Shown: positions 20,927-38,719 of the stretch, one piece after another
How positions within the stretch are numbered: the stretch's first letter is position 1
Layout of the letters: every line of letters starts with the position of its first letter
NCBI GenBank assembly: GCA_001874365.1
Contig: MPDF01000013.1
Location: forward strand, 1-43,776
Source: Gammaproteobacteria bacterium MedPE
Lineage (GTDB): Bacteria; Pseudomonadota; Gammaproteobacteria; Enterobacterales; Psychrobiaceae
Length of the DNA stretch: 43,776 nucleotides
Direction: 5' to 3'
Position numbers and translations under genes: made by a program
The notes under the pieces: model-generated
Database searches by the model: none
Told to the model about the DNA's origin: nothing
The model's input: the letters and a program-made list of their open reading frames with translations, nothing else

Positions 20927-22420
20927 ATGTTGTTTTCACTGGCAGATTTTTTCTATAAGGTTAAAGATAACCATTGGCGTGGTAATATTAATTTTAGCCC
21001 TACTTCTGAAGCATTTAGCGCTCTCTCACTCCAATCTTTTACCGCGCTACAATCAGAAAATCCAATAATCTCATTCGGCGATCGTGTACTAGTTACTGAT
21101 GAACCAACCCCCAATACTATCTCAACGTTTCTATGGCTCTGGTCTATTGGTGCCGTTATTGTGCCGATAAGGCACTCCATGAAACAAGAAGCAATAATGA
21201 ATATTGCAAGTGATTGCCACGCAAAAGTACTGTTTAGAAATGGGAAAATGCACACGTTGTCAATTTCACCACGTCAACCCGCCAGTGAGACAGACGTGAA
21301 ATCGTTCTCTTTTGAATCAACGAGAATTGTCTGTGGTTGTGATCTTGCGTTAATTATTTACACGTCGGGAAGTACTGGCGCTCCTAAGGGCATTATGCTC
21401 AGTCACAATAACGTCATTACGTCGATCAACGCCATCGGCACATACCTGTCTCTCGATGCACAAGAACACATTTTATGTCTCTCTCCTCTTTCATTCGACT
21501 ATGGTCTTTATCAACTGCTCTTTAGTTTAAAATTCGATTGCCAATTAACGTTATTCCAAGAAGATTTCCATCCCATAAAAGTCATCAAAGCCCTAGAAAA
21601 TAACGATGTCTCACTGCTGCCTGTCGTCCCCGCTATGGCTAGTTCATTAGTCAAGATAATTCAGGTATTCAAAACAAAGCTACCGCATCTAAAAAAGATA
21701 ACAAATACAGGTGGCCACCTAGCTCAGGAAACGATCAAAAATTTAACAACGTTATTGCCAACAACCAATATTTACGCAATGTACGGCCTAACGGAATGTA
21801 AAAGAGCATTGTATTTACCACCACAGGACACGATAAAAAAACTGGGGTCTGTTGGTATTCCAATTCCTGGGCTGGAAGCAAAAATTTTTAAAGCGCAGTG
21901 TGACCAACACTTCAAAGAAGTTTCACAAGGTGAAATTGGCGAACTTTTTATTCGCGGAGCAGCACTAATGCAAGGCTACTATGGCCAAGCTGACGCAGGT
22001 GCGAGTATTCACAAAGGCCACTATAGGGATGATAACTGGCTGGCAACAGGAGATCTCTTTACTCAAGACGAAGACGGCTACTTTTATTTTAAAGGGCGTT
22101 GCAAAGACCTTATTAAACAAGCGGGATATTGCTTGTACCCAGCAGAATTAGAAGCACAAATTGAGCTGTATTCCAACGTCTACCTAGCAGCAATCGTTCC
22201 TCACACCGATAGATATGGCGATGAAATTGCTTGCTTATATGTCCAACTCAATCAAAACGATACATCTCATCAAGCTGAGTTCAAAGCGTGGCTCAAAGAA
22301 CACTTAGACCCTAGTTATTGTCCCCGCGAAATTAACTTCACCGACAATATGGTACTGACCCCAAATTCTAAAGTTGATAAACAGCACTTAATTTCACATT
22401 TAGCTGCCGTGCAGTCATAA
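20927..22420 (+). CDS. AMP-forming acyl/aminoacyl ligase (adenylation enzyme)
   Basis: A 497-residue ANL-superfamily enzyme, first gene of the operon. The start at 20927 is chosen for its GGAGG ribosome site 6 bases upstream; an in-frame extension to 20855 has none. Core motifs are all present: YTSGSTGAPKG (145-155), YGLTEC, WLATGDL, the hinge FKGRCKDLIKQAGY and the C-terminal catalytic Lys in NSKVDK (K482). It should adenylate a carboxylic or amino acid and pass it to a thiol, most simply the ACP at 31129-31377. Length and the SPLSFDYG segment recall prolyl-AMP ligases (PltF type) and the ligases of exosortase-A loci. The substrate cannot be read from sequence. Confidence 0.9.
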   Translation: MLFSLADFFYKVKDNHWRGNINFSPTSEAFSALSLQSFTALQSENPIISFGDRVLVTDEPTPNTISTFLWLWSIGAVIVPIRHSMKQEAIMNIASDCHAKVLFRNGKMHTLSISPRQPASETDVKSFSFESTRIVCGCDLALIIYTSGSTGAPKGIMLSHNNVITSINAIGTYLSLDAQEHILCLSPLSFDYGLYQLLFSLKFDCQLTLFQEDFHPIKVIKALENNDVSLLPVVPAMASSLVKIIQVFKTKLPHLKKITNTGGHLAQETIKNLTTLLPTTNIYAMYGLTECKRALYLPPQDTIKKLGSVGIPIPGLEAKIFKAQCDQHFKEVSQGEIGELFIRGAALMQGYYGQADAGASIHKGHYRDDNWLATGDLFTQDEDGYFYFKGRCKDLIKQAGYCLYPAELEAQIELYSNVYLAAIVPHTDRYGDEIACLYVQLNQNDTSHQAEFKAWLKEHLDPSYCPREINFTDNMVLTPNSKVDKQHLISHLAAVQS

Positions 22421-22443
22421 AAATCACAGGAAGAAATGAGTTT

Positions 22444-23574
22444 ATGGAAAACGTAATTAACGCGCTAAATAGCAGCCACCGCTCAATAGAGACGCCTTGC
22501 TATCTCTATAGTGTGAGTCAGGTTGCTGACAACTTTAATCAATTAAAGTCTGCGCTCGGAACAGAGTTAATCTATTCCATGAAAGCTAACAACAATATCG
22601 ATTTACTCATGCGATGTAGTCATCACCTCACAGGAGGTATTGAAATAGCTTCCATTGGTGAACTCAATTCAGTCGCGGGCGGCAATAGTGAAAAGTATAT
22701 TAATAACCCCAGTGCAGATAAAAAGTTCTTACGGGCTGCGATTGCATCGCGATCGACCATTATCATTGACAACTTAACACAGTTAACCACGCTAGAAACA
22801 CTAATAGGAAAACGCCCTCTTAAACCAATATTACTTAGACTAAACCCTTGTTTATTAAAGCGGTTTAATGCAGATATAGGCAAAATACGTTCTGATCAGT
22901 TTGGCATGGACTGGGATACTACATGTCAAGCAATTGATTTTTGTCGAGAGCACACCATACCACTTGCAGGCTTTCATGTATTTAATGGCTCTTATCAATT
23001 CACCGCCAACGCAATGGGAACAGCAACAGCAGCACTTTCCATCATTCAGGCGATAGAAAAACGATATCAACAGCCACTTAGCTTTGTCAATTTAGGCGGG
23101 GGATTTGGAGAACATTGGCAGCAAAGTGATTTTGATTTCCAAGCATACCGAGAATTATTAGCCACCTTTCCTGAACACATCACCATTGCCCATGAGACAG
23201 GCCGTGGCCTCATGGCATCTGCTGGATATTTTTTGACTCGAGTGCGTTACATAAAAAATATTGAGCAACAGCAATATGCAATCTGTGACGGTGGAATGAA
23301 TCAAAACTTCTTGCTCGCAAAAACAGAAAATAGCTTTCGACGCTTTAACACACCAACACTATGGAGTTCGTCACCACATCAACTAAAAAATAGTTGTACC
23401 TACGTGGGCAGCTCATGCAGCAAAGATGATGTTATTGGCAAGCAATCTGACACTGATGTTTCACCACAGGTCGGTGATATTTGTATTTACGATAATTGCG
23501 GCGCCTATAACGCGAGTTACACCTTGTCGCCATTTTTAACCTTGCCAAACGCAAAAACATTTATCATCGAATAG
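22444..23574 (+). CDS. PLP-dependent decarboxylase, fold type III (LysA/ornithine decarboxylase family)
   Basis: A 376-residue alanine-racemase-fold decarboxylase. Lys47 in YSMKANNN should bind PLP. Other family motifs are HVFNGSYQ, the glycine loop VNLGGGFG, HETGRGL for the phosphate, CDGGMNQNF, the catalytic Cys325 in GSSCSKDD and YDNCGAYNASYT. It is closer in style to the carrier-linked or specialised members (BtrK of butirosin synthesis, exosortase-A-associated decarboxylases) than to LysA, which is an impression from motifs only. It could act on a free amino acid or on an aminoacyl-ACP made by the preceding ligase. An AGGAAG site lies 10 bases before the ATG. Confidence 0.9.
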   Translation: MENVINALNSSHRSIETPCYLYSVSQVADNFNQLKSALGTELIYSMKANNNIDLLMRCSHHLTGGIEIASIGELNSVAGGNSEKYINNPSADKKFLRAAIASRSTIIIDNLTQLTTLETLIGKRPLKPILLRLNPCLLKRFNADIGKIRSDQFGMDWDTTCQAIDFCREHTIPLAGFHVFNGSYQFTANAMGTATAALSIIQAIEKRYQQPLSFVNLGGGFGEHWQQSDFDFQAYRELLATFPEHITIAHETGRGLMASAGYFLTRVRYIKNIEQQQYAICDGGMNQNFLLAKTENSFRRFNTPTLWSSSPHQLKNSCTYVGSSCSKDDVIGKQSDTDVSPQVGDICIYDNCGAYNASYTLSPFLTLPNAKTFIIE

Positions 23575-23581
23575 GCTTATT

Positions 23582-24625
23582 ATGAGTGATTTACAATCTA
23601 TCTTTTCTCGTTTTGTGACGGACCATCTTGATACTTATCAAGCGGTGCCCAAAACATTTAACGACATTATTGATCGTGCCGTCTTTGGCTTATTAGACTC
23701 TGAAATTCTCATTGAAGATAATTTTTCTGTCAAGCCACCATTAGTTCCACCTAAAGTCGGACAACCGTTACCTGAATTCGAGCAAACCTACGTCATTGAT
23801 CAATTAACGAATCAAATCAAGACGGATGGGTTTGGCCCTCATTTTCATAATATTATTGGCTTATTTGGCTCTATTATGTTGCAAATGACGGCAACACCAG
23901 AGCAACAACAGCAGGTCAATGACTGGCTAGAACAAGGGCATTTCGGTCACTTTTTAATGACTGACGCCGGCGGTCCTTCATTAAATCATTGGGACACAAA
24001 GCTAGATAATTCATCTGCGCAATGGACCATTGCTATTAATAAGAAGTGGGGTATTGAAGCTCACCAATTAGGCTTTTTAATGCTTGTTGTTAAACAACCT
24101 GGTAAACCCTTTCCTCTCACTTTTTTAGTGCCTCCAGACCAAGCGCAACATATAGAGCAACATAAAGTTGGAGTAAGTTATCTGGATGGTCGACTACAAC
24201 TGGGCAATGTCAAAGGCACGATTAATGTCGATGCCTCTCAGCAATTAAAACTTGGTGGCTTAAGCAGCGTTAATCGCTTCCTCACACTCGTGAGACCTCG
24301 CTTTGTAAAGGCACTCATGAATCACATGTTGTGGTTAGCGAGCCAAAAACGACTTGCGATGGATGACACACTATACGAACACATTCAGTATTTACACAAG
24401 GTAGCAGACGGCTGTTTGGCCAATAAATCATTTTCTATTCATTCTGTTGATCAGGTGCTTGCCTTAAAGTTTGCCTCAAATGAATTGCTCTTTGACACTG
24501 TTGCTCAAGGCAAAGTGTGCCATTTTAGCGATCAACGAGACCTCCTTGGTTTCACCAAAATGGAAGGTAGTTCCTATCGTTGCTTTCTTGAAATCTACGC
24601 CAAGCAAAAAAGGGCTCGCCAATGA
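23582..24625 (+). CDS. Short acyl-CoA dehydrogenase-like protein
   Basis: A 347-residue protein with the order of an acyl-CoA dehydrogenase but shorter than the usual 380-400. A helical N-terminal part is followed by a middle domain with GHFLMTDAGGPSLNHWDTK, which resembles the flavin-contacting MTEP..GSD segment. The C-terminal helical domain ends with KMEGSSYRCFLEIY, which resembles the YEGT motif carrying the catalytic Glu. Sequence identity to standard members is clearly low. It may oxidise an acyl- or aminoacyl-ACP, as PltE/RedW-type enzymes do, or may have lost flavin. The next gene begins in its stop codon (ATGA). Confidence 0.6.
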   Translation: MSDLQSIFSRFVTDHLDTYQAVPKTFNDIIDRAVFGLLDSEILIEDNFSVKPPLVPPKVGQPLPEFEQTYVIDQLTNQIKTDGFGPHFHNIIGLFGSIMLQMTATPEQQQQVNDWLEQGHFGHFLMTDAGGPSLNHWDTKLDNSSAQWTIAINKKWGIEAHQLGFLMLVVKQPGKPFPLTFLVPPDQAQHIEQHKVGVSYLDGRLQLGNVKGTINVDASQQLKLGGLSSVNRFLTLVRPRFVKALMNHMLWLASQKRLAMDDTLYEHIQYLHKVADGCLANKSFSIHSVDQVLALKFASNELLFDTVAQGKVCHFSDQRDLLGFTKMEGSSYRCFLEIYAKQKRARQ

Positions 24626-25473
24626 GCGCATTAACACTTAAAGCAATTGCGTTTCAACCATTAACGCAGCAGCTATTTAAAGAACCAACCAATACCGAAG
24701 CAGCATTTGAGTGGCTCACTCACTTATTAGCTAAGCAAACATCACAGGTTGTTGATATTTTATCTGACGATCAGCGTTCAAAAATAGCGCGTCACTTTTT
24801 ATGTTCAACGATGATCGAGCTGCCCTTCACAACAGGTGATATTTCTTGGTCAATGGTTAGTAATATGTTGGCTCAGCATGGAACACATCAGGCCGATACT
24901 TTTATTAATGCGTATGAATGTGCCTCTTGGGGTTATTCCCTACGGCATGATTTACACCATAATCAATCATCAAAATTTTTATTGGTGAGTATTATCGATG
25001 CCAACATCTATGACTTAGAATTTTGGCGATACAACGAACACTGGCACGAATCAGGTTTTGGAATAACAACCGTGCTTATCGAAGTCAATGGACAAGTGAC
25101 GAACGAGCTAATCACACAATGTGCTAATACTCATAACTCAATGGCAGAATTCGCGACAGTCATTAGACGACACGCGGCAGAACTAACAGATACAACATTA
25201 GCGATGCCCTTCTTTCCCGAAAATATTCAGCAAATGTTCGACAAACTATTAGCAACTGAATCGCGACTCGATGACTTGCATCAACAATGGGGGCATTGTT
25301 TTGGCTCAGATCCTTGGCTATCAATTTTATCTCACTGCCGTGAAAACCCAGTGCGAGAAGATCAGGATTATTTGGCCTGTTCATTGGCACTTAACGGTTA
25401 TTTTGCCATGGCGAATATTACAGTGACTCCAGCGACTCAATTTATTCTGCAAGAGGTGCAAGGCTATGCATAG
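24622..25473 (+). CDS. Divergent thiolase-fold (KAS III-like) protein, tentative
   Basis: A 283-residue soluble protein not recognised with certainty. The segment FINAYECASWGYSLRHDL (Cys100) followed by a LLVSIIDANIYD strand and FGITTVLIEV follows the order of KAS III: active-site Cys in NAACxG, a hydrophobic VIGAD strand, then FGDGAGAVVL. The last strand, LALNGYFAMANI, could be the C-terminal GGG-type strand. I could not place the catalytic His and Asn, and it is about 40 residues shorter than FabH. If the fold is right, it may act as a partner or pseudo-enzyme of the protein at 25975-27030. It overlaps both neighbours. Confidence 0.4.
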   Translation: MSALTLKAIAFQPLTQQLFKEPTNTEAAFEWLTHLLAKQTSQVVDILSDDQRSKIARHFLCSTMIELPFTTGDISWSMVSNMLAQHGTHQADTFINAYECASWGYSLRHDLHHNQSSKFLLVSIIDANIYDLEFWRYNEHWHESGFGITTVLIEVNGQVTNELITQCANTHNSMAEFATVIRRHAAELTDTTLAMPFFPENIQQMFDKLLATESRLDDLHQQWGHCFGSDPWLSILSHCRENPVREDQDYLACSLALNGYFAMANITVTPATQFILQEVQGYA

Positions 25474-25975
25474 ATGTTACACCTTGCAATATAATGGGAA
25501 ATTACGAGGGACGCCCTTTCCCCATAAGCCGTCGGCGGCGCTTGCTCGCTGTATGCCACTCACCTCAGATAATGACTTTGAAGTATTTGCGCGCTTACCT
25601 AATTCACAGGCACCGATTCTCGTTAATTTTATTGAGCATTACCAAATACTTGATGCACTCGTGTTACGTGCCAATGAAATATGGCCGAACGAATTAACGA
25701 TTCTAGTACGACTATCAATGCCAGGGGGAATGCGTTTACCAAAATCGCTATTAGCATCGAACGTTTTGCTCATGCAAGACGTTCAACCAGAAATTAAAAA
25801 ACTGTCAGGGTGTGTGTCTCACTTACTTGTTATTGACGATGACTTTATTCGCTATCAATTAGAACAAGGGAACAACGACATGACTGTACAACTGTTTAGC
25901 ACCCAAGCGGATCAAGATGGCAATTTTGCGCTGTTTTTAAGCGAACTGACTCAATTTAATATTGGTGAAAAATAA
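25466..25975 (+). CDS. Uncharacterised 169-residue operon protein
   Basis: I do not recognise this protein. It is soluble, starts within the end of the preceding gene (8-base overlap), and its stop overlaps the next start (TAATG), so its translation is coupled to the two thiolase-like neighbours. It has alternating hydrophobic strands (PILVNFIE, LTILVRLSM, SHLLVIDDD) and no signal peptide or membrane helix. Its position suggests a role in the same assembly step, perhaps as a third subunit or a hotdog-like enzyme, but the sequence does not show this. Confidence 0.7.
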   Translation: MHRCYTLQYNGKLRGTPFPHKPSAALARCMPLTSDNDFEVFARLPNSQAPILVNFIEHYQILDALVLRANEIWPNELTILVRLSMPGGMRLPKSLLASNVLLMQDVQPEIKKLSGCVSHLLVIDDDFIRYQLEQGNNDMTVQLFSTQADQDGNFALFLSELTQFNIGEK

Positions 25976-27030
25976 TGTCAGTATCGACTTCGCCACAGGT
26001 TGTTCTTGATAAATTTTGGGCTAATAAAGTCGACTCCGTCGTTCAAGGTTTAGCTCAATTACGCCAACAACTTGATGCTATTGATGAAATACCACAACAC
26101 ATAATTTTTGTCAGTGCAGGCGAAGTTAAGCCCCTACTAAATCCTGATATAGCAGCATTTTGTCAGTCGATACGTGACGACTTCTCAGGTGAAATAGACT
26201 TCATTAGCGCAGCTTGTACAAGCTTGCATGCCAGTATTTTACATTTTAATCATAGTGAAGCGATTAGCTGCTTTGTGCTCTTTTTAGAATTAGACGAGCC
26301 CATTCAACAAGGCTGTTTAGATTCTTTAGGCATCGGTTTACTTAACGATCACCAACATGAATCATCACCCGCTAATAGTGGATTAAGTGTCAAAAATAGT
26401 GTTGGATTTTGTCTGCTGCGTAAAAAAGATCCGCTTCCCCAAGACCTTGTCATTGCACAGTGTCATATATTTTCTCAGCCGAAAGGCATACCAGGTATGC
26501 AACAATTGCTGAAACAGCTTGTTCCTTATTTAACCTATGCAACAAGCCCTGAAAAAGTTGTCGCTTTTGACATTAGTTCCTCGTGGAGTACCCAACTTAA
26601 ACTTGCCTTAACACATCATCTGAGACAGCGTGCTCACATTGTGTCTTGGCTAGCAAGTTTTGAGACAGATCATCACCACTATTTAAGTCTAAAACCGATC
26701 TTTGAACTGCAAAATTATTATCAGCACCTCCAAAAAAACACATTGTCTTTGTTAACACTGGGAGGTGGTGGACGCGTTGGCTACCTTACTATTTCAACTC
26801 AACATCGTCTTAACAGCTCCATAGATAACGCATCCTTTGATGACTGCAACCTTGACCAAGATACAGCTATCTATGCTCATTCAATCGATGTTAGTCAATA
26901 TTCAACGCCAGACTATCACGCCATGGTTAAGGCTAATTTAAAATACCCACGATTACAGTATCGCGGCTTAAACAACCATTACTTTCGCTGGCAGTATCGC
27001 GGATTTTCACACGCTGGAATTAAACAATGA
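25975..27030 (+). CDS. Divergent ketosynthase-like (thiolase-fold) protein
   Basis: A 351-residue protein. FISAACTSLHASIL with Cys81 resembles the nucleophile motif of beta-ketoacyl synthases (xxACSSxLxA); SVGFCLLRKK sits where GAGAVVL is expected; and the C-terminal LLTLGGGGRVGYLTIS matches the closing glycine-rich strand of KAS III enzymes (GFGGGLTWG). The usual catalytic His and Asn contexts are not clear, and the N-terminus is short, so activity is uncertain. With an ACP and a ligase in the operon, a condensing or acyl-transfer role is reasonable. It overlaps the next gene by four bases (ATGA). Confidence 0.5.
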   Translation: MSVSTSPQVVLDKFWANKVDSVVQGLAQLRQQLDAIDEIPQHIIFVSAGEVKPLLNPDIAAFCQSIRDDFSGEIDFISAACTSLHASILHFNHSEAISCFVLFLELDEPIQQGCLDSLGIGLLNDHQHESSPANSGLSVKNSVGFCLLRKKDPLPQDLVIAQCHIFSQPKGIPGMQQLLKQLVPYLTYATSPEKVVAFDISSSWSTQLKLALTHHLRQRAHIVSWLASFETDHHHYLSLKPIFELQNYYQHLQKNTLSLLTLGGGGRVGYLTISTQHRLNSSIDNASFDDCNLDQDTAIYAHSIDVSQYSTPDYHAMVKANLKYPRLQYRGLNNHYFRWQYRGFSHAGIKQ

Positions 27031-28952
27031 ATATGTTTACAACACCTAAACAAGCTTATGACGTCATTATCATCGGTGCTGGATGGGCTGGCTTAACGTT
27101 AGCAAGACAGCTAAAGCACGAAAACCCTCAACTTACGATTCTACAACTAGAAGCCAGTACGCAATTTAAAGCGAAAGTAGGCGAAGCAACCGTAGAAATT
27201 GCCGGACATTATCTAATGCACCGCCTTGGATTAGCAAATTACCTGTATCGTAATCATTTACCTAAGAATGGCCTGCGCTTCTTGTTTGATTCACCCAATC
27301 ATGATCTTAGACTCGATCAAATGAGTGAACATGGGACAACGAGTATACCGCCCCACCCCGCCTTTCAATTGGATAGAGCCAGATTTGAAAAAGATTTAGT
27401 ACAAATGAATCGAGAGCAAGGTATCGAGTTATTGATGGGGGCGAAGGTCAACATAATCGCCACCAGCCACGGTGAAAAAAATGAACATCAGGTCGACTTC
27501 AAATATCAAGGTGAAACTCATCAGATAAATAGTCGTTGGCTGATTGATGCTAGCGGTAAAGCGAGCTTACTTGCCAAACAAAAGAAATTACATCATCGCC
27601 AAGATATTCCCAAAAATTGTGCGGCTTGGGGACGATTCAGTAACATCAAAGATATCGATTCACTGGGTTCTAAGACATGGCAGAAAAAAGTGAACGGCCG
27701 TTTCTTATCAACCATCCACTTTACAGGTCCGGGCTATTGGATTTGGGTGATTCCATTAAGTGGTGGTTTCACTAGCATTGGTGTGGATTGCGATAAAAAC
27801 GTCATGGACAATCCACCGCTAAAACAAGATCAGTTTCTTGATTTTTTAGCTCAACATACGGGGCTATCTCAATTACTCGAAGGAGCCAATTTAGAAGACT
27901 TCGAAGCTTGGGGACAGCTAGCATATCGTGGAAAACAATACATCAGTGAAGAACGTTGGGCAACAACAGGTTTCGCCGCGATGTTCTTAGATCCGCTATT
28001 TAGTGGTGGTGGAGACATGATTGCATTAATCAATGATGCCCTTTGTGAAACAATTTGTGATGATATTGCCTGTAGTGACGAGCAGACAGCAAATCGCCTT
28101 TTAGCAGATAAAGTGCCCACCTTAAATCAGCAAGCACATGAGTTTTATCAAGGGCTATTTACCTATGTTAACAACACAATGCCTATTTTAGATTGTGCTC
28201 ATCTGTGTTCTAAAGTTGTTGCCTATAATACCGCAATTTATTTTTTAGAATCCGCTTGGGATTACATGGCTGGAAATTACCTTGATCTTGCTCATTGGAA
28301 AAAACGCGATTACATTCGCCGAGGTAATTTGGCGTTAGAGAAACATCTCAATACTCAAATACTCGCCACCGTGGACACTTTACGTGAACAAAATCGTTAC
28401 TTTGAACGCAATGATGAAGGTTTTTTTGAATCAGGCGCAGATCTCTATAAATACTTTGTGTTTAACATGGGCGAGTCAGGAAAAGATGGTTGGCGCATGG
28501 ATTTACACATCAAATTATGGGTGGATATCTACTTAAAAGTTACAGAAGCACGCCTCAACTTACCTCAGTTTGCAGCACGTCGACTCGTACAAGAATGCTT
28601 AACATTACCAACTATTTTAGCCTGTGAAGATTTTTCTGATGAGCAATTTCCTGATTTATTAGCACAAATAAATCAAACGCTCACGCAAGAATTACAACAG
28701 CTCACTGAGCATACCGTCCTAACCCACGTTACGCGGGATTCATTTACCAGTGGACATGTTGATGTTCAAATCGTTGATAGTCAGATCCCTGATGACGAAT
28801 ATAAAAAGCTTGTTAATCAAGCCAAAGGCTTATTTAACAGTGAACAAGAATACATTGCGATGCCATTTATGGTGCCATATTTCTTACAGTTTTGTCGTCA
28901 AACAGACCTAGAAATCATGTCGGAAGCCATCATGCCGAGTGAGGTTTATTGA
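27027..28952 (+). CDS. Flavin-dependent halogenase-like protein
   Basis: A 641-residue flavoprotein of the tryptophan-halogenase superfamily. It has the FAD Rossmann motif GAGWAG (17-22), VGEATVE after the first domain, and a Lys at 80 (LPKNGLRF) that aligns by eye with catalytic Lys79 of PrnA. It also has the halogenase signature WxWxIP (WIWVIP, 238-243) and FxxPxxSxG at 320-328. The last motif is shared with halogenases that act on carrier-bound substrates such as PltA. About 100 residues at the C-terminus exceed the typical length. It could halogenate an ACP-bound aromatic or pyrrolic intermediate, or be a related monooxygenase. A flavin reductase is not encoded nearby. Confidence 0.82.
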   Translation: MNMFTTPKQAYDVIIIGAGWAGLTLARQLKHENPQLTILQLEASTQFKAKVGEATVEIAGHYLMHRLGLANYLYRNHLPKNGLRFLFDSPNHDLRLDQMSEHGTTSIPPHPAFQLDRARFEKDLVQMNREQGIELLMGAKVNIIATSHGEKNEHQVDFKYQGETHQINSRWLIDASGKASLLAKQKKLHHRQDIPKNCAAWGRFSNIKDIDSLGSKTWQKKVNGRFLSTIHFTGPGYWIWVIPLSGGFTSIGVDCDKNVMDNPPLKQDQFLDFLAQHTGLSQLLEGANLEDFEAWGQLAYRGKQYISEERWATTGFAAMFLDPLFSGGGDMIALINDALCETICDDIACSDEQTANRLLADKVPTLNQQAHEFYQGLFTYVNNTMPILDCAHLCSKVVAYNTAIYFLESAWDYMAGNYLDLAHWKKRDYIRRGNLALEKHLNTQILATVDTLREQNRYFERNDEGFFESGADLYKYFVFNMGESGKDGWRMDLHIKLWVDIYLKVTEARLNLPQFAARRLVQECLTLPTILACEDFSDEQFPDLLAQINQTLTQELQQLTEHTVLTHVTRDSFTSGHVDVQIVDSQIPDDEYKKLVNQAKGLFNSEQEYIAMPFMVPYFLQFCRQTDLEIMSEAIMPSEVY

Positions 28953-31113: not shown

Positions 31114-31128
31114 CGTAACGAGAATCAC

Positions 31129-31377: not shown

Positions 31378-31399
31378 CTATCAATTATAGGACTTACTC

Positions 31400-32134: not shown

Positions 32135-32811
32135 TGGTTGAACTAAAAAACATCAGCCGTCACTTCATGCTAGGCAACAATCAGGTCAATGCGTTAACGC
32201 ACATTAACTTGACGATCAATCAGGGCGAATTTCTAGTACTCAAAGGCGCGAGTGGCAGTGGAAAGAGCACCCTACTAAATATTATTGGCATTATGGATCA
32301 GGCAAGTCATGGCGAAACCTATATCGCCGGAAAAAGCCTAAATCAGCTGTCTGATAATCAACAGTCAGCGATGCGTAAAAAGCACATTGGGTTTATTTTT
32401 CAGTCATTCAACCTCTTGCCTGTCTTAACAGCGCTTGAAAATGTTCAATACCCACTGTCTTTACAAGGGATAAAAAACACCAAAGAGCGCGCAACAATAG
32501 CGCTTGAACGCGTTGGTTTAGGGGAGTTTATTCATCATAAGCCCAATCAACTGTCTGGCGGGCAAATGCAACGCGTCGCTATTGCACGAGCCTTAGTAAC
32601 CGAACCCGATATCATTTTGGCGGATGAACCCACGGCCAATTTAGATTCGGTATCAGCTCAATCGATCATGACCTTAATGACCGAGCTTAATCAACAAGGA
32701 ATAACTTTCATTTTTGCTACCCATCACGATTATGTGCTTTCAAAAGCATCTCGTATTATTGAATTAAAAGACGGGGCGATTCTTGAAGATTCCCGAAAGG
32801 CTGTCGCATGA
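32128..32811 (+). CDS. LolD/MacB-type ABC transporter ATP-binding protein
   Basis: A 227-residue ATPase with Walker [10 protein letters not shown] (40-48), Q-loop [18 protein letters not shown], signature [15 protein letters not shown], Walker [14 protein letters not shown] and switch His in ATHH. The FQ.FNLLP.LTA.ENV pattern is typical of the LolD/MacB/FtsE class, which works with FtsX-fold permeases to drive mechanotransmission rather than transport across the membrane. The partner permease is at 33578-34807. The gene is overlapped by its neighbours on both sides (7 and 4 bases). Confidence 0.93.
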
Positions 32812-33578
32812 AATTGACTTTGATTGTCCTATTACTCAGTGGACTACTCACCGGATGTGGTGACAATACTGTTGTTGAGTCCTCCCCCAACAATGACATC
32901 GGTACTCAACACGAAGCAACCAGTACCTCTCTGTTACCTGCTGACACAATTTATCAACAACCAACAGACCTTGGCGCGACGACTAACGAACAAAATGCAA
33001 AATTAATACAACTGCAATCGATTAAAATGCCATCCCCAACACAACAACGGTTGATTGCACTGCTTAAATTAGCGCTGTTCTCAAGCGATAGTAAACAGTC
33101 CCTTGAAAAGCTCATAACCATTACATCGACGCTAGAGCAACTGTCAAATAAAACGCCCACTGATTACGAGCTCATGGCTGCTTATGGCAGTGCCCTCAGC
33201 TATCAGTCAATCTTTATGCAAGATGATCTTGGTCGTATGAATTTAACAGCACGTAAGGGCATGCGAATTATGGATCGTGCTATTAAAAAGGCTCCGGCTA
33301 ACTTGGGCGCTCGATTTTTACGTGGTGTCAGTTACGCTAATATGCCCAGTTTTTTGAATCGTGCGTCATTTTCAATCGATGACCTGCAACTCCTAAAGCA
33401 ACACACGAATGCTCAACCTCAAAGTCAATTCATGGCGTTGGTTGATTACTACCTCGCGCTAGCTTATTCACGTAATAATCAAATGCCTCAAGCCAAAGCA
33501 TTATGGACATCACTCAGTAATCAGCCGAATACACAATGGAAAACACTAGCGATTGCAAAGCTTAAGGAGATTGATTAA
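32808..33578 (+). CDS. Predicted lipoprotein with TPR-like body
   Basis: A 256-residue protein with a lipoprotein signal: [17 protein letters not shown], with the lipid-modified Cys at 17. Residues after Cys are GDN, and Asp at +3 rather than +2 does not clearly retain it in the inner membrane. About 50 polar residues follow, then a helical repeat region (about 75-250) similar in order to the TPR protein two genes upstream. It probably forms part of the export module. Its start overlaps the ATPase stop (ATGA), and its stop overlaps the permease start (TAATG). Confidence 0.8.
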   Translation: MKLTLIVLLLSGLLTGCGDNTVVESSPNNDIGTQHEATSTSLLPADTIYQQPTDLGATTNEQNAKLIQLQSIKMPSPTQQRLIALLKLALFSSDSKQSLEKLITITSTLEQLSNKTPTDYELMAAYGSALSYQSIFMQDDLGRMNLTARKGMRIMDRAIKKAPANLGARFLRGVSYANMPSFLNRASFSIDDLQLLKQHTNAQPQSQFMALVDYYLALAYSRNNQMPQAKALWTSLSNQPNTQWKTLAIAKLKEID

Positions 33579-34807
33579 TGGGATTTCGTTACAAAATTGC
33601 GCTGCTTAATGTATTGCGAAATCGTCGGCGTAGCATATTGACGCTACTGGCCATTCAAGTTGCTGTTGTCAGTCTTATTTTATTCGCAGGTTTTGTCGCG
33701 TCGATGTTTGATGGGATGCGAGAAAACATGATTCGCTCACAGCTAGGTCATTTGCAGATTTATAAGAGTGGTTTCAATCAATATGGTCATATTGAACCTG
33801 AAAAATATCTACTTACTCCTGAGGATGTCACCAAGATTACCCGTATAGTCCACACCTTACCTGACGTTGAGTTAATGACACCTCGACTAAATTTTTCAGG
33901 ATTGTTAACCAATTCCAATCAATCTATCGCCGTTGTCGGTATTGGCATAGATCCAGACGAAGAATCATTACTTAGCTCAGCAATTACCATCACAAAAGGA
34001 GAAGACTTATTTAGCCAAGATCAAGATGGAGCGCTACTTGGTGAAGGGTTATTTAATGCTCTAAATACTAATATTGGCGATTATTTAACGTTACTCAGTT
34101 CTACTACTGACGGTTCAGTCAATGCCATTGATATTAAAGTTGTTGGCGCCATCAACACCGGTCTTAGGGATATTGATAATCGACTTATTCGTATCAACCT
34201 TCCTCATGCACAAGACCTACAATACACGCAAGGAATTAGCCGATTAGTTATTTTGCTGTCAGATACAGAACAAACCCAAGCAACTTTAATTTCACTAAAA
34301 CAACGTTTTAAGCAACAAGGTTTAGGCGTTGAGATTAAAACCTGGTCACAGCTCGCGGATTATTATCACGAAGTCACTAAATTATTTAATGGTGTATTTG
34401 ATTTCCTTCAAATCATTGTGTTGTTTATCGCCGCACTAAGTATTGCCAACACGATGATGATGGCTGTCATGGAGCGTACACCTGAAATTGGCTCAATTCG
34501 AGCACTAGGCGCAACACGCTATGAAGTCATGATGCTGTTTATCACTGAGGCTTGTTATTTGGGGCTTATTGGTAGTGTCATCGGCGTATTGTTAGGAATT
34601 CTATTAGCCAACGGGATCACAGCTGCTGATATTACAATGCCGACACCACCAGGAAGCAGCCAAAATTATCCAATTCGAATATTCATATCTTGGACGATTT
34701 TGCTACAAACAGCATTTACCGGCACTGTTGTTGCTGTTGCCGCCAGTATATATCCCGCTTTCAAAGCATCTCGATTACAAATCAACCAAGCGATGCGCTC
34801 AGTGTAA
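33578..34807 (+). CDS. LolE/MacB-type (FtsX-fold) ABC permease
   Basis: A 409-residue inner-membrane protein with the four-helix MacB/LolCE layout. TM1 is at about 20-42, followed by a large periplasmic domain (about 45-270); TM2-TM4 lie at about 280-302, 325-350 and 370-395. The C-terminal part has the FtsX-domain motif NTMMMAVMERTPEIGSIRALGATR and closes with YPAFKASRLQINQAMRSV, both typical of LolE/MacB. With its ATPase it should extract or push a lipidic substrate at the periplasmic face. A LolA-like carrier follows directly, which supports a Lol-type route. Confidence 0.93.
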   Translation: MGFRYKIALLNVLRNRRRSILTLLAIQVAVVSLILFAGFVASMFDGMRENMIRSQLGHLQIYKSGFNQYGHIEPEKYLLTPEDVTKITRIVHTLPDVELMTPRLNFSGLLTNSNQSIAVVGIGIDPDEESLLSSAITITKGEDLFSQDQDGALLGEGLFNALNTNIGDYLTLLSSTTDGSVNAIDIKVVGAINTGLRDIDNRLIRINLPHAQDLQYTQGISRLVILLSDTEQTQATLISLKQRFKQQGLGVEIKTWSQLADYYHEVTKLFNGVFDFLQIIVLFIAALSIANTMMMAVMERTPEIGSIRALGATRYEVMMLFITEACYLGLIGSVIGVLLGILLANGITAADITMPTPPGSSQNYPIRIFISWTILLQTAFTGTVVAVAASIYPAFKASRLQINQAMRSV

Positions 34808-34816
34808 GGAACACTC

Positions 34817-35575
34817 ATGAAAAGCTTTTTAATAACCTGTTTCTTGTTCACCGTCTCATTAAGTCACAGTGCAATGAGCCAACCTAAGGATACAAGTACG
34901 CAAACGAAAGACTCGATGACCGTGACTGAATTAATCAACATCATCGACTCATACCGAGGATTCGGCTCACAAGGTTTCAGTTTTGATGTCACTAATGTCA
35001 GCTATAAAGCAAATAGAGAACCCCGCCAAAATAAACTCAGGGTTGACGTAAAACAAAATGACTCCATCATTAAGTTTTTATCTCCGGCAAGACAACAAGG
35101 GCGTGTTTTACTCAAGCAACAAAACAACATGTGGTTGTATATTCCGGGGACGCGTAATGTCATTCGCATTTCACCCGCACAGCGTTTATTAGGTGAAGCC
35201 AGTAACGCAGACGTCACTGGTAGTAATTTCAGTAGCGACTACACAGGCGAGATAATCGAGGGAACAAACAGTGATATACAGGTGTTATTAACCGCAAAAG
35301 AAAACAACACAAGTTACCACAAGGTAAAATTTTGGCTACAAAATAAAGCGCCTTATCAGCCTATTAAAAGCGAGTACTTTTCTCGTTCAGGAAAGCGCTT
35401 AAAAATAGCCCAATATAAAGAATTTAAAGAAGTTAATGGCGTCGTAAAAGTTCATAAAATGTTGTTATCGGATCCACTGATTGCGGGCAGCTATACATGG
35501 ATGCTCTTCGACAATTATCACCTAAATGAGTTGCCTAGTGCGCTATTTAATAAAGAAGCGATCACCAATTTATGA
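34817..35575 (+). CDS. Periplasmic LolA-like (outer-membrane lipoprotein-sorting) protein
   Basis: A 252-residue protein with a signal peptide (MKSFLITCFLFTVSLSHSAM) and a LolA-like fold of the PF17131 type. Typical features are the paired strands around GRVLLKQQNNMWLYIPGTRNVIRI, the SNADVTGSNFSSDYT segment, and the later strands ISPAQRLLG and KRLKIAQYKEF. Such proteins carry a hydrophobic cargo through the periplasm and often accompany RND or MacB-like exporters in lipid or polyene gene clusters. Here it probably carries the operon product, or a lipid bearing it, from the permease to the outer membrane (inference). It overlaps the barrel gene by four bases. Confidence 0.85.
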   Translation: MKSFLITCFLFTVSLSHSAMSQPKDTSTQTKDSMTVTELINIIDSYRGFGSQGFSFDVTNVSYKANREPRQNKLRVDVKQNDSIIKFLSPARQQGRVLLKQQNNMWLYIPGTRNVIRISPAQRLLGEASNADVTGSNFSSDYTGEIIEGTNSDIQVLLTAKENNTSYHKVKFWLQNKAPYQPIKSEYFSRSGKRLKIAQYKEFKEVNGVVKVHKMLLSDPLIAGSYTWMLFDNYHLNELPSALFNKEAITNL

Positions 35576-36837
35576 GGCCGTTTCATTTACTACTAGGCAT
35601 AATTTCACTGTTCTTCTCTGTGGTCATTGTTGCGCAAACAGACGAGCCTGTTGATCCCTTTGCCAATAATTTAACAGACACTAAAACAACGTATTTAAAT
35701 CAAGTATCGCTTCAATCGTACTATCAAGCTAATACACTCAATAGAAACAATCTATTCAACCCAGGATTAACTAAATTTCCCAATTATCAACACGTGTCAG
35801 TCGTTGACTGGCAATTAACATCACAGTGGCAAAGTAACTACCAAGTTATCACTCGCGCTATTGCCCAATATGATCAGTCTAATCTTGCAGAAGATTCACG
35901 AGCCTCAATGCTTGAAGGCGCAATAAAATGGCACAGTGATGACTATCGATGGCAATGGCAGTTAGGTCGCATTCACACGCAATGGAGTACAGGTTTTAAT
36001 TGGCATCTGATGAATGTGCTGTCACCTTTTCGCAACAGGCCCTATATCGATATTGACGATCCTAATCAACAGAAAGGTTGGGACATGTTCACCGTAAAAT
36101 ATCAACATAATAATTGGTTTTATCAATTAGTTGCTGCTGATTATGTGACAGAAAACGATCGACACAAATTACAATATGTAGCTAGGTTCGGCTATCAAGG
36201 TGAACATGATTTTTCACTGCTCATTCATAAATTACCTGCTCAAGATATTAACTTTGCTGCCAGCTATAACAAAGTGCTAACCGATCACATCACTGTGCGA
36301 ATGCAATGGAGCCAATCTAGCCTGCGCGAACAAGATACCCATGTTCTAATCGAAAGCATTAACGATAAACACTATCAAAAGTTTCTTGCTGGTATCGGTT
36401 ATTCTTTTGCATCAGGACATGAATTACGTCTCGAATATTTAAATACCGAACACGGCTTTCGAGAAGATGAATGGAATCACATAACGCAGCAAAGTACTGT
36501 TTCAAGCACTCAAATAACGAACATGCAAGGAAGCAATAATGACTATGCCTACCTTGGCGCAGCACTCTCTAGCCTAGGACGTGGCCAACTACGACGAAAC
36601 TATCTGTATCTGAGCTATACCAGCCCATTATCCAGCCAACTTTGGCAGTACCGTCAAAGTATTCAGCTCAACATGGATGATGACAGCCAACTACACCGCC
36701 TAGCCATATTAAAATCTTGGAACAACAGTTTAACCAGTCGCTTACAGGTGGAAGCATTTAGTGGCTGCACTCAATGCGAATATGGCTTAACACCAAACAA
36801 ACATAACATTCGAATTGTTCTTAACTGGGCATTTTAG
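35572..36837 (+). CDS. Predicted outer-membrane beta-barrel protein
   Basis: A 421-residue protein with a signal peptide (about 1-23, ending near VIVAQT). The mature part consists of alternating amphipathic strands rich in Tyr, Trp and Gln (for example WQWQLGRIHTQWSTG and HELRLEYLNTEHGF) and ends in RIVLNWAF. The terminal Phe after alternating hydrophobic residues is the usual outer-membrane barrel signature. A CxxC (CTQC) lies near the end. I do not recognise the family. Directly after a LolA-like protein, it may be the outer-membrane acceptor or exit channel. Confidence 0.75.
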   Translation: MRPFHLLLGIISLFFSVVIVAQTDEPVDPFANNLTDTKTTYLNQVSLQSYYQANTLNRNNLFNPGLTKFPNYQHVSVVDWQLTSQWQSNYQVITRAIAQYDQSNLAEDSRASMLEGAIKWHSDDYRWQWQLGRIHTQWSTGFNWHLMNVLSPFRNRPYIDIDDPNQQKGWDMFTVKYQHNNWFYQLVAADYVTENDRHKLQYVARFGYQGEHDFSLLIHKLPAQDINFAASYNKVLTDHITVRMQWSQSSLREQDTHVLIESINDKHYQKFLAGIGYSFASGHELRLEYLNTEHGFREDEWNHITQQSTVSSTQITNMQGSNNDYAYLGAALSSLGRGQLRRNYLYLSYTSPLSSQLWQYRQSIQLNMDDDSQLHRLAILKSWNNSLTSRLQVEAFSGCTQCEYGLTPNKHNIRIVLNWAF

Positions 36838-36856
36838 CAATAATAAAGGAAAAAAA

Positions 36857-38719
36857 ATGATGTTTAATAATGCTTATCGCGCTGATTTACGTGACCATTC
36901 ATTTTTATTATGGCAACAATTTAAGGTACAAGAACATTTACTCGACGTTGATATTTATCCAGAGTTTGACCAAGATTTTTGTACGCAACTAATCGACCAC
37001 GCGCATACCTTTGCAACACAACAGTTAGGACCACTCTATCAATCAGCGGATCGAGACGGTTGTCAACTAGGTGAAGATGGCAAAGTCACCCTTCCCCAAG
37101 GGTTTGAATCCCTCTGGCAAGACTATTTAGCGTCACAATGGGGGCGACTAGGAGCACCAGCAGAATATGGCGGTCTGGGTGCACCATACATTTTAGCCCA
37201 AGTAATAAACGAACTATTCATGGGGGCAAATCCTGCTTTTATGATTTACTCAGGCTTTTGTAGCCCGGCACTCTACCTCATTGAAAAATTTGGCACGGAA
37301 CAGTTAAAAGATATCTTTTGTCAAAAACTAGCAAGCAATCAATGGGGCGCCTGTTTGTGCATGACAGAGCCTGATGCTGGTAGCGACGTGGGTAACTGCC
37401 GTACAAAAGCCATTAAGCAGCCTGATGGTCGCTATCAAATTAGCGGAGAGAAAATATTTATTTCAGCGGGAATGCATCAACTAACCGACAATATCGCCTA
37501 TATTGTCTTAGCGCGTGTCGAAGGTGCTAAAGCGGGCACTGTAGGCCTTTCATGTTTCGTCGTGCCGAAGGTTGATTTATCCGGTAATGACAATGGTGTC
37601 AACTGCTTACGCCTTGAGAACAAAATGGGATTAAACGGCTGTGCAACCAGTCACTTAACGTTTGGTGCTGATACACCAACCTATGGTTATCTACTTGGTG
37701 AACGCGAAAATGTCGGATTACGTCAACTGATGACCATGATGAATTTGGCGCGCATTGCGACAGGCATTTACGCACTAGGAATGGCTTCAAGTGCGTATCT
37801 AAATGCCGCAGAGTATGCAAATGAACGTATTCAAGGTACCGATTTCAAGCAGTCTTTTAACCCAAAAGCGAAACGCGTTGCAATTAATGCCCACGTTGAT
37901 GTGAAACGAATGCTACTTGAAATGAAAAGCAAAGTAGAAGGGTGTCGCGCGTTAATCGTAAAATTATGTTTTCATCAAAGCATGGTAACAAATATTACAA
38001 TTAAACAGCAAAATGAGTTACTAGAACCAGAAGAAGCAACAAAACAGAGCTATTTACATCAATCGTTAGTCAACTTACTAACGCCCATTGTCAAAGCCTA
38101 TACGTCAGATCAAGCATGGCAAGTGGCCGAATTAGCAATCCAAGTCTATGGCGGACACGGTTATATCAAAGATCACCCAGTAGAACAATACGCGCGTGAT
38201 ATCAAAGTATTATCCTTGTGGGAAGGAACAAATTTTGTCCAGTCGGCTGATTTATTTCGCGACAAATTAGCCATGGGTAGACACTCAAAACTATTGGCAC
38301 TATTTGAAGAACAAGTTAGGGCGTTTTTAACCACTCATCAAGATCGTCAGGAATTCTCTTCGTCACTAGCGATGCTTGACAAGGCATTAGTTCAATTAAC
38401 ACAAACCCATCAATTAATGGGAAGTTGGATAAAAATCCAAAAAATGGAGCGTATTTTCTTAGTTTCTACGCGATTTCTGCAAATGATGGCCGAAGTGACT
38501 GTGGCTTGGTTGTTACTTGACGGTGCCATCATCGCAAGAAATGAGCTAAACGCTCATCCCGATGAGCAAAGTAGCAACTTCTATCGTGGAAAAATAGCCT
38601 CTGCTACTTTTTATATTAATAATATTCTGCCGAATGTTTTCAGCACGGCACAAATTATTGCCCTTGCAGACGACACAGCCATTGATGCTGACAGCACAAC
38701 ATTTCTAGCCCAGCAATAA
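36857..38719 (+). CDS. Acyl-CoA dehydrogenase, long form
   Basis: A 620-residue flavoenzyme of the long acyl-CoA dehydrogenase class (about 600 residues, DmdC-like layout). Motifs include the flavin-binding MTEPDAGSDVGN, GEKIFISAG, YGGHGYIKDHPVEQYARD and LWEGTNFVQ with the likely catalytic Glu456. The start at 36857 has AAAGGA 6 bases upstream; a longer frame running back into the barrel gene is not supported. It is the last gene of the operon, 19 bases after the barrel gene, and probably makes or degrades an acyl precursor for the pathway, or acts on ACP-bound acyl groups. Confidence 0.93.
   Translation: MMFNNAYRADLRDHSFLLWQQFKVQEHLLDVDIYPEFDQDFCTQLIDHAHTFATQQLGPLYQSADRDGCQLGEDGKVTLPQGFESLWQDYLASQWGRLGAPAEYGGLGAPYILAQVINELFMGANPAFMIYSGFCSPALYLIEKFGTEQLKDIFCQKLASNQWGACLCMTEPDAGSDVGNCRTKAIKQPDGRYQISGEKIFISAGMHQLTDNIAYIVLARVEGAKAGTVGLSCFVVPKVDLSGNDNGVNCLRLENKMGLNGCATSHLTFGADTPTYGYLLGERENVGLRQLMTMMNLARIATGIYALGMASSAYLNAAEYANERIQGTDFKQSFNPKAKRVAINAHVDVKRMLLEMKSKVEGCRALIVKLCFHQSMVTNITIKQQNELLEPEEATKQSYLHQSLVNLLTPIVKAYTSDQAWQVAELAIQVYGGHGYIKDHPVEQYARDIKVLSLWEGTNFVQSADLFRDKLAMGRHSKLLALFEEQVRAFLTTHQDRQEFSSSLAMLDKALVQLTQTHQLMGSWIKIQKMERIFLVSTRFLQMMAEVTVAWLLLDGAIIARNELNAHPDEQSSNFYRGKIASATFYINNILPNVFSTAQIIALADDTAIDADSTTFLAQQ

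Follow-up and report, generated by a model that had tools for sequence, protein, structure and literature searches.

A 17-gene operon of Gammaproteobacteria bacterium MedPE that probably joins a halogenase-bearing relative of the afc pathway to an outer-membrane delivery system

The window, a stretch of 43,776 nucleotides, contains 17 plus-strand genes (g1 to g17, 20927-38719 according to ORF analysis) which probably encode an afc-type thiotemplate pathway free of condensation domains, together with a delivery system of its own for the outer membrane. Ten of the genes have homologues in a single Burkholderia arboris locus (L070) that fits the afc cluster of AFC-BC11 in gene content and order. 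The best reading of the product is a halogenated N-acyl-β-alanyl or N-acyl-dehydro-β-alanyl lipid or lipopeptide. The operon looks like a remote relative of the AFC pathway that has acquired a halogenase, and so it may make a new halogenated lipid-peptide.

The 17 genes form a real operon, as the preliminary description had proposed. The g1 gene starts with the ATG at 20927, which is preceded by GGAGG. Ten of the 16 gene junctions overlap by 1 to 8 bases, the remaining six leave gaps of 7 to 23 bases (23 bp being the maximum), and the genes are kept together in other genomes. The claimed lack of a PKS or NRPS megasynthase was also confirmed: neither a PKS ketosynthase nor an NRPS condensation family was detected in the 17 proteins at E 0.001, and the operon shares the lack of a condensation domain with afc. 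No tRNA or Rfam match was found in the window. The genes, with the evidence for their assignment, are:

20927..22420, plus strand: g1, predicted VinN/AfcQ-type adenylating ligase (phmmer to PDB, pocket residues, Burkholderia homologue)
22444..23574, plus strand: g2, predicted PLP decarboxylase, AfcP/BtrK-like (PDB profile matches, motifs)
23582..24625, plus strand: g3, orphan family, homologous to the AfcJ-position gene (Burkholderia homologue)
24622..25473, plus strand: g4, AfcL homologue, putative KAS III-like acyltransferase (Burkholderia homologue, Foldseek, hhalign)
25466..25975, plus strand: g5, weakly homologous to the AfcM-position gene (profile match, position)
25975..27030, plus strand: g6, orphan with AACTS and GGGGRxG (motifs; KAS III-like only by eye)
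27027..28952, plus strand: g7, predicted flavin-dependent halogenase (PDB profile matches, motifs)
28949..29884, plus strand: g8, alpha/beta hydrolase (Hydrolase_4, E 3.9e-32)
29878..31113, plus strand: g9, degenerate asparagine-synthetase-like protein (weak N-terminal matches)
31129..31377, plus strand: g10, acyl carrier protein, AfcK homologue, with the Ser in GVDSL (PP-binding, E 6.5e-8)
31400..32134, plus strand: g11, probable membrane-anchored TPR protein (weak TPR match)
32128..32811, plus strand: g12, LolD/MacB-type ABC ATPase (ABC_tran, 2.8e-35)
32808..33578, plus strand: g13, periplasmic TPR-like protein with a lipobox in the window (sequence, lipobox)
33578..34807, plus strand: g14, LolC/E-like FtsX permease (FtsX, 1.9e-19)
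34817..35575, plus strand: g15, LolA-like periplasmic carrier (PF17131, E 7e-37)
35572..36837, plus strand: g16, probable outer-membrane barrel (by eye)
36857..38719, plus strand: g17, acyl-CoA-dehydrogenase family protein, AfcE/BolQ-like (Acyl-CoA_dh_C, 2.9e-24)

The search for co-occurrence that had been suggested revealed all 17 genes together in six further genomes, giving seven loci with the window: Pseudoalteromonas sp. NBT06-2 (L002), P. denitrificans (L003), a genome of the same genus as the latter (G486; L044/L045), two Pleionea (L004+L019 and L005+L020) and a genome from the same class as the window (G925; L075). The comparison of g8 in G486 covered its 204-aa C-terminal part only, and g12, g14 and g15 are each split into two ORFs in G925. 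The order of g1-g6 and g8-g16 is identical in all seven loci; only g7 and g17 change place, and the gene order is rearranged in three of the six other genomes. The main motif tests covered five loci, with six for g1 and g2. The gene set is rare and patchy. A phylum survey of 398 genomes with g3 as the probe detected it in the own genome and one other; with g6 as the probe, three of 108 genomes of one genus and none of eight other species of the window's genus were positive. A search of plasmids with g6 gave no match, and no description of the operon was found among the literature matches listed. Some of the seven host genomes are marine.

The preliminary description knew of no characterised pathway with such a gene set. 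This did not fully hold, and novelty in this sense was rejected, when a tblastn search of plasmids with g2 led to the afc-like locus: two Burkholderia records headed 13 records (223 and 211 bits), the next one reaching 114 bits. The homologues found in L070 are those of g1-g5, g10, g12, g14, g15 and g17, three of which have no Pfam family; identities measured for g2-g5 were 19-37%. The order in L070 is ABC, permease, LolA-like, barrel place, g3, ACP, g4, g5, AurF-like, KAS III, g2, g1, g17, citrate synthase and methyltransferase. The record is unannotated, and its identity as afc was derived from content, order and two residue numbers: the Cys of the g4 homologue is number 111 and the carrier Ser, counted from the only Met of its ORF, is number 40, which equal the numbers of AfcL Cys111 and AfcK Ser40 in the afc reports (PMC12186527, PMC6301696). 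The letters J, L and M of the L070 homologues were assigned by gene order. In a control, the same search on the window's own 25.6 kb flanks (one locus, with 73 ORFs as against 232 in L070) matched only g12, to other ABC ATPases.

Like afc, the operon combines a VinN-type A protein, a PLP decarboxylase, a single stand-alone carrier, a KAS III-like AfcL with its Cys, AfcJ and AfcM homologues, an acyl-CoA dehydrogenase (AfcE) and ABC/FtsX/LolA-like genes. In contrast to afc, it lacks the fatty acyl-AMP ligase AfcA (there is one AMP-binding protein among the 17 genes), the AurF-like protein, the citrate synthase and the methyltransferase; for AfcO, too, sequence comparison detected no counterpart in it. 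Conversely, the operon brings the predicted flavin-dependent halogenase, the orphan g6, the alpha/beta hydrolase, the degenerate AsnB-like protein and the two TPR proteins. For seven genes (g6, g7, g8, g9, g11, g13 and g16) the 29 kb of L070 yielded no homologue, so the product must differ from AFC-BC11. The word 'halogen' is absent from the main text of PMC12186527.

The best PDB match of g1 in a phmmer search was the VinN chain 3wvn (E 2.9e-48); in a profile search of the PDB, multi-domain LgrA entries ranked just ahead of VinN. Residues D191, T261 and R293 of g1, which are invariant in all six loci aligned, align to VinN D230, S299 and R331 and so agree with the pocket of VinN-type adenylating proteins, in which an Asp and an Arg are combined with either Ser or Thr. 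The position of VinN Ser299 is occupied by Thr in g1 and likewise in the AfcQ homologue of L070 (E 2.3e-43), which shares the Asp, Thr-Gly-Gly and Arg of g1; Arg311 of AfcQ is numbered 317 in the L070 ORF. AfcQ is reported to activate L-Asp in vitro (PMC12186527, PMC6301696). Since g1 is of the VinN/AfcQ type, L-Asp is probably attached to the ACP through its side chain and decarboxylated to a β-alanyl thioester. The decarboxylase candidate, g2, matched 6knh (4e-31) and BtrK (2j66, 2e-27) in PDB profile searches and its L070 homologue with 270 bits. Its PLP-Lys, Cys-xx-Asp and further motifs are kept in six of six loci; of the decarboxylase motifs tested, only GGGF and HEAGR were matched in the L070 AfcP homologue. 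Judged by sequence, g2 is a carrier-dependent PLP decarboxylase closest to AfcP.

The g3 protein, previously taken for a short dehydrogenase, matched neither that family nor any other in Pfam or NCBIfam. It has a homologue in L070 (E 5.3e-63, 35.3% over 346 aa), with which it shares QRDLLxFxKMEGSSYRC. Repeated hhalign tests against acyl-CoA dehydrogenases were not significant and a profile search of PDB sequences gave only five chance-level matches (E 0.1-0.53); g3 is possibly a divergent acyl-CoA-dehydrogenase-like protein. Two thiolase-like proteins had also been claimed, of which g4 was supported as KAS III-like and g6 was not established. The g4 protein matched its L070 homologue with E 4.4e-34 (28.9% over 266 aa), its Cys100 being aligned to AfcL Cys111; His225 and Asp230 are candidate catalytic partners. 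Foldseek with a model of pLDDT 66.8 gave PqsBC (5e-7), FabH (1e-6) and altogether 225 matches at E <=0.001. Alignment to KAS III sets by hhalign was significant (E 8e-6 and 4e-6) with the Burkholderia homologue added and the KAS III side enlarged by three Tritonibacter proteins and, in one of the two runs, by the protein occupying the AfcO position in L070; it was not significant without the Burkholderia homologue. A g4 profile search of PDB sequences yielded no result, and hhalign of g4 against g6 was not significant. A thiolase fold with an active-site Cys is thus supported for g4, the model being of moderate confidence. Condensing KAS III enzymes carry HQAN and GN motifs, which g4 lacks in five of five loci. 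The g5 match to L070 is weak (profile E 1.8e-8, 18.6% over 167 aa), with the counterpart in the same position after g4; its best fold match, a ketosynthase (E 0.017), and its hhalign to FabH, also on retest, were not significant. AfcJ, AfcL and AfcM thus all have homologues in the operon (E 5e-63, 4e-34 and, weakly by profile, 2e-8). The orphan g6 carries AACTS and GGGGRxG in five of five loci, and G925 has SACTS and likewise GGGGRxG; g6 gave no significant profile or PDB match, including hhalign to FabH and retests. The carrier g10 matched that of L070 with E 9.5e-21.

The halogenase-like flavoprotein of the preliminary description was borne out. The PDB profile matches of g7 were PltA (1e-24), ChlB4 (5e-20) and CmlS (3e-18), and the four halogenase motifs tested, GxGxxG (17-22), PK (79-80), WIWVIP (238-243) and FxxPxxSxxG (320-329), are present in five of five loci; the Lys was positioned via alignment to FPKKFG of PltA. 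We take GxGxxG, Lys, WxWxIP and FxxPxxSxxG to have their usual roles in halogenases. By sequence family and motifs, g7 appears nearest to carrier-dependent flavin halogenases, and halogenation in the pathway is likely. In contrast to PltA, a pyrrolyl-carrier halogenase, ChlB4 and CmlS, g7 has about 250 C-terminal residues outside the halogenase matches, and its substrate is possibly non-aromatic.

The g17 protein matched its L070 homologue with E 9.7e-147, and WEGT with the presumed catalytic Glu is kept in five of five loci; the L070 gene adjoins a citrate synthase gene, like afcE. We infer that g17 is a β-alanyl thioester desaturase and g8 a release or editing hydrolase. The asparagine-synthetase-like character claimed for g9 is limited to a weak similarity to the N-terminal part of these enzymes; Cys2 and the SGGxDS motif are absent in five of five loci, and g9 is probably not catalytic as a synthetase.

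A Lol-like route to the outer membrane, also proposed previously, is supported by the predicted ABC ATPase, FtsX permease and LolA-like carrier, which resemble LolCDE-LolA sorting. The operon differs from that system in a single permease gene scoring below the LolC/LolE equivalog cut-off (g14 against TIGR02212, 132 bits with a cut-off of 362), a PF17131 carrier and TPR partners. This part is separate from the housekeeping Lol system, whose lolC/E pair lies elsewhere in the genome (C24; 426 and 409 bits). The L070 homologues of g12, g14 and g15 matched with 1.5e-51, 1.6e-59 and 9.2e-14. The g11 gene is kept in the six other loci. The lipoprotein nature claimed for g13 holds for four of six loci examined, which have a lipobox (the window and three of the Pseudoalteromonas group), and fails in both Pleionea. 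The g16 gene, without a Pfam match, follows g15 in seven of seven loci; a 446-aa ORF, likewise without a Pfam match, occupies the AfcI place in L070. A dedicated trafficking system spanning both membranes was also inferred by the authors of the afc work (PMC12186527, PMC6301696). Against such a route, both the outer-membrane channel gene afcI and the ABC transporter gene BCAS0204, not necessarily the g12 counterpart, were dispensable in the afc cluster.

Four other explanations were weighed. In the same pathway g7 could be a flavin oxygenase that hydroxylates or epoxidizes the carrier-bound chain, giving an unhalogenated, oxidised β-alanyl lipid. This is consistent with the unmatched C-terminal region and with NCBIfam, where models for QhpG, LodB and further flavin oxygenases of the superfamily also scored and neither these nor the halogenase model CmlS reached the cut-off, but we consider it unlikely in view of the halogenases as best PDB relatives and of Lys80, WxWxIP and FxxPxxSxxG in all five loci. 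PltA as the best PDB relative of g7, together with ACAD, ACP and KAS-like genes, could also indicate that a halogenated pyrrole or a polyketide-like amine is made by a GABA- or proline-like route, with g4/g6 as condensing enzymes. This is highly improbable: Arg293 and Thr261 speak for an amino acid that is bound via its side chain and keeps its alpha-carboxylate free, g2 follows AfcP, and g4 lacks the motifs of condensing enzymes.

The module could also be functionally akin to XrtA/PEP-CTERM polysaccharide loci, where the same ligase type adjoins an ACP and an asparagine-synthetase-like amidotransferase, so that the amino-acyl group would decorate an envelope polymer instead of a free lipid or lipopeptide. 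TIGR03098 was the best NCBIfam match of g1 and TIGR03099 the second of g2, both below cut-off. The pattern YGxxTECKR occurred in seven of 369 genomes of the class (own included) as against one of 369 for the reversed control; proteins of such regions were scanned in three of the six other genomes (L064, L068, L069; in L068 the ligase alone), the ligases having TIGR03098 as the best match, below cut-off, and an XrtA deacetylase above cut-off adjoining the ligase in L069. A plain exosortase module was rejected; none of the TIGR03098, TIGR03099 and TIGR03108 equivalog cut-offs was reached. The wider reading is very unlikely, as no glycosyltransferase or exosortase family was found among the 17 proteins, the scores are far under the cut-offs (g1 250/592 bits, g2 148/478 bits), g9 had no TIGR03108 match at E 0.001, and g3, g4, g5 and g17 have afc-locus counterparts. 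Finally, the ABC/FtsX/LolA-like/barrel route would suit a structural outer-membrane lipid serving membrane remodelling, as opposed to a secreted bioactive compound. We regard this as rather unlikely since the rare, patchy distribution fits a specialised metabolite better, and AFC-BC11 is an antifungal that builds up in culture (PMC12186527, PMC6301696).

In the preferred, afc-type pathway, g1 would adenylate the side-chain carboxyl of L-Asp and load it on g10, and g2 would decarboxylate the isoaspartyl thioester to β-alanyl-g10, perhaps iteratively. The amine would then receive a fatty acyl group, for which g6 or an acyl-ACP are candidate agents, as the operon has no fatty acyl-AMP ligase. The N-acyl-β-alanyl thioester would be desaturated to N-acyl-dehydro-β-alanyl thioester by g17, perhaps with g3, and g7 would halogenate the carrier-bound chain, plausibly at the electron-rich enamide. 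As a KAS III-like enzyme, g4 may receive the chain on Cys100 and hand it to an acceptor, with g8 editing or releasing it. For delivery, g12/g14 would extract the lipophilic product from the inner membrane, g15 would ferry it, and g16 would insert it into the outer membrane or let it pass through, assisted by the TPR proteins g11 and g13. The amine or amide chemistry claimed earlier is likely and is narrowed to a β-alanyl or dehydro-β-alanyl lipid or lipopeptide. The specific proposal that g7 acts on carrier-bound N-acyl-dehydro-β-alanine to give halo-enamide lipids or lipopeptides, in a condensation-free line co-inherited with the LolA-like shuttle to the outer membrane, is tentative and rather unlikely; neither this product class nor such a halogenase substrate class was found among the literature matches listed.

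The same starting logic occurs elsewhere. In vicenistatin (VinN/VinO/VinL) and butirosin (BtrK) biosynthesis an acidic amino acid is loaded on an ACP through its side chain and decarboxylated there; unlike the operon, the former proteins belong to a polyketide pathway, BtrK is part of an aminoglycoside pathway, and we know of no lipid export in either. In the bolagladin cluster of Burkholderia gladioli, BolO/BolC/BolN/BolQ convert Asp to dehydro-β-alanine on a stand-alone ACP, with KAS III-like partners as in the operon, but bolagladins use a modular NRPS which the operon lacks, and the word 'halogenase' is absent from that paper (PMC7756342). With the operon, AFC-BC11-type assembly would reach beyond Burkholderia into Pseudoalteromonas, Pleionea and the lineage of the window, with g1-g5, g10, g12, g14, g15 and g17 as the core shared with afc and a halogenase added. 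The operon also suggests a kind of natural-product export that is based on a lipid shuttle. The families of AfcJ and AfcM, which AFC production requires but which are not understood, gain relatives in other bacteria, so that harmless hosts can serve for their study.

The preliminary description had placed 17 genes in a single plus-strand operon, and this was right. The open reading frames in the window define it as follows.

20927-38719, plus strand, 17-gene operon g1-g17

Ten of the 16 gene junctions are overlapping and the remaining gaps measure 7-23 bases. GGAGG precedes the g1 start at 20927, and the start of g17 is most likely at 36857. At 41.0% the operon differs little in G+C content from its flanks (40.2 and 40.4%). 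On the other strand lie, to the left, genes for a deo-type aldolase, a metalloenzyme and a phosphorylase and, to the right, TatD and prfC. A TonB-dependent receptor gene upstream (3951-6326) has apparently no relation to the operon. The window comes from a draft genome of 3.25 Mb which is 80.9% complete.

The same description knew of no characterised pathway with this gene set; a relative does exist, however, in the afc cluster for the antifungal lipopeptide AFC-BC11. A tblastn search of plasmids with the PLP decarboxylase g2 gave 13 records, in which two Burkholderia replicons scored 223 and 211 bits and the next one 114. In the Burkholderia arboris region L070, whose record carries no annotation, the genes run as follows: AMP ligase, ABC ATPase, FtsX permease, LolA-like match, 446-aa ORF, g3, ACP, g4, g5, AurF-like protein, weak KAS III match, g2, g1, acyl-CoA dehydrogenase, citrate synthase, methyltransferase, TauD-type protein and another ABC gene. 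This fits the published afc gene content (PMC12186527, PMC6301696); the letters J to T were given to L070 genes from order and function, not from the record. Two residue numbers also agree: the g4 homologue has its active-site Cys at 111, as does AfcL, and the carrier Ser, counted from the only Met of its ORF, is residue 40, as in AfcK. In the published account, afcE is the acyl-CoA dehydrogenase BCAS0208, a number adjoining that of the citrate synthase BCAS0207.

Ten window genes were matched in L070, nine of them by phmmer (g1, E 2e-43; g2, 2e-70; g3, 5e-63; g4, 4e-34; g10, 1e-20; g12, 2e-51; g14, 2e-59; g15, 9e-14; g17, 1e-146) and g5 by profile (E 2e-8). Three of the ten (g3, g4 and g5) gave no hit to Pfam or NCBIfam families at E 0.001. 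Over its 29 kb, L070 has no match to g6, g7, g8, g9, g11, g13 or g16. When the same 17 queries were run against the window's own flanks as a control, only g12 matched, to other ABC ATPases. The earlier interpretation, an ACP-based pathway coupled to Lol-like export, was correct in outline but overlooked its characterised relative. The new elements are a branch that carries a halogenase, the constant set of 17 genes in it and the coupling of assembly line and LolA-like shuttle.

A search for the gene set in other genomes, as had been proposed, found all 17 genes together in six relatives. A pattern scan with the halogenase gave at least four loci, in Pseudoalteromonas sp. NBT06-2, P. denitrificans, Pleionea sp. 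CnH1-48 and Pleionea sediminis. Within the genus to which P. denitrificans belongs, 3/108 genomes carry the operon, G486 being the new one; a survey of the phylum gave 2/398, namely the window's own and a new genome of the same class (G925). The gene set is rare: other surveys returned only the source genome (1/58 and 1/369), none of eight other species in its genus, and, in the order of Pleionea CnH1-48, that strain itself (1/294). Presence in the first four loci was established by alignment for g1-g7, g9 and g17 and by phmmer for g8 and g10-g16; phmmer also served for most G486 genes (g1 and g2 of this genome being aligned, and g8 compared only for the part in L045) and, with profiles, for G925. 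The order of g1-g6 and g8-g16 is constant. The Pseudoalteromonas-group loci, like the window, have g7 between g6 and g8 and g17 at the end; in Pleionea the two stand together ahead of g1, and in G925 g17-g7 lies between g6 and g8. The flanks, as read, are unlike one another between the window, NBT06-2/G486 and Pleionea. In G925 (L075, 2081-5661), g12, g14 and g15 each read as a pair of ORFs that overlap, owing either to frame breaks or to errors in sequencing.

The closest solved structures to the ligase g1 in a single-sequence search were 3wvn (E 2.9e-48) and 3wv4 (E 2.8e-41), which we take to be VinN from their codes and from the agreement in residue numbering; in a profile search, multi-domain LgrA entries came just ahead of 3wvn by summed score. 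The best structure for g2 was 6knh, labelled probable diaminopimelate decarboxylase and presumably a siderophore-pathway enzyme, followed by BtrK (2j66, 7ru7) and other diaminopimelate decarboxylases. The account of AfcQ describes L-Asp activation in vitro and equates its Arg311 with VinN Arg331 (PMC12186527). The L070 homologue has the same Asp, Thr-Gly-Gly and Arg as g1, the Arg being R317 in the ORF as read, an offset of six. Ligases with the VinN-type TECKR motif also occur in three other loci from genomes of the class (L064, L068 and L069), with TIGR03098 as best model, below its cut-off; L069 has an XrtA polysaccharide deacetylase too, above cut-off. For the exosortase-associated ligase too, the amino acid loaded may be an acidic one, attached through the side chain. 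On a Tritonibacter mobilis plasmid (L072, 8959-11394), a g2-like decarboxylase part forms the start of an 812-aa protein whose annotation is acyl-CoA dehydrogenase family. Beside it are KAS III-like, ACP, adenylating and P450 genes, and the locus may be a further relative of the chemistry considered here.

The predicted g4 model (pLDDT 66.8) had 225 structure matches at E <=0.001, with TM about 0.5 among the best 50 of them; those listed include PqsBC, FabH, HMG-CoA synthases and type III polyketide synthases. A profile of g4 and its Burkholderia homologue aligned with KAS III at E 8e-6, Cys on Cys. The asparagine-synthetase-like g9 is without both synthetase hallmarks, and g17 retains the WEGT glutamate, which has a role in acyl-CoA dehydrogenases. 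The best structures for g7 were PltA, ChlB4 and other halogenases, and the halogenase markers GxGxxG, Lys (Lys80), WxWxIP and FxxPxxSxxG are conserved in 5/5 loci. A Janthinobacterium lividum plasmid (L071, 11989-13587) encodes a flavoprotein resembling g7 (33.5% over 59% of g7); genes for a PPTase, an Asp-hydroxylase-type protein, a hydrolase and a type I PKS are close by.

As published for AFC-BC11, synthesis starts with AfcQ attaching L-Asp to AfcK through the side chain, and AfcP decarboxylates the residue on this carrier. After further action of AfcQ the trimer is capped by the acyl ligase AfcA, and AfcL accepts the chain and joins it to an amine acceptor. AFC-BC11 itself is sensitive to light. 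In that account, deletion of afcJ, afcL, afcM, afcN, afcO or afcP abolished production, whereas the afcI mutant produced like the wild type. BolQ is reported as required for dehydro-beta-alanine in bolagladins (PMC7756342), and its homologue AfcE is expected to act like it. By homology to these genes, the operon should make beta-alanyl and probably also dehydro-beta-alanyl thioesters. All seven loci of the group have the halogenase, of which the search of the 29-kb L070 region gave no sign; since every member has it, halogenation probably belongs to the core pathway of the group. On chemical grounds, an N-acyl enamide, being electron-rich, could be a site for electrophilic halogenation.

The export genes common to the operon and L070 are g12, g14 and g15. 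The genome has a lolC/E pair (426 and 409 bits) on another contig and g14 reaches only 132 bits against a cut-off of 362; the operon's export set is therefore additional to the housekeeping one. A second TPR/ABC/FtsX/LolA-like/barrel set was seen in Pleionea CnH1-48 (L024, 6049-14393, and L056, 62-12479), and the two together suggest that such ABC/FtsX/LolA-like/barrel sets serve lipophilic natural products. The Pleionea set is accompanied by LytS/LytR-type regulators and an Sfp-type PPTase. Genes that look NRPS-like by eye are found about 15 kb upstream of it, and the stretch between encodes an exporter, hydroxylases, an acylase, a JmjC-like protein and an aspartokinase.
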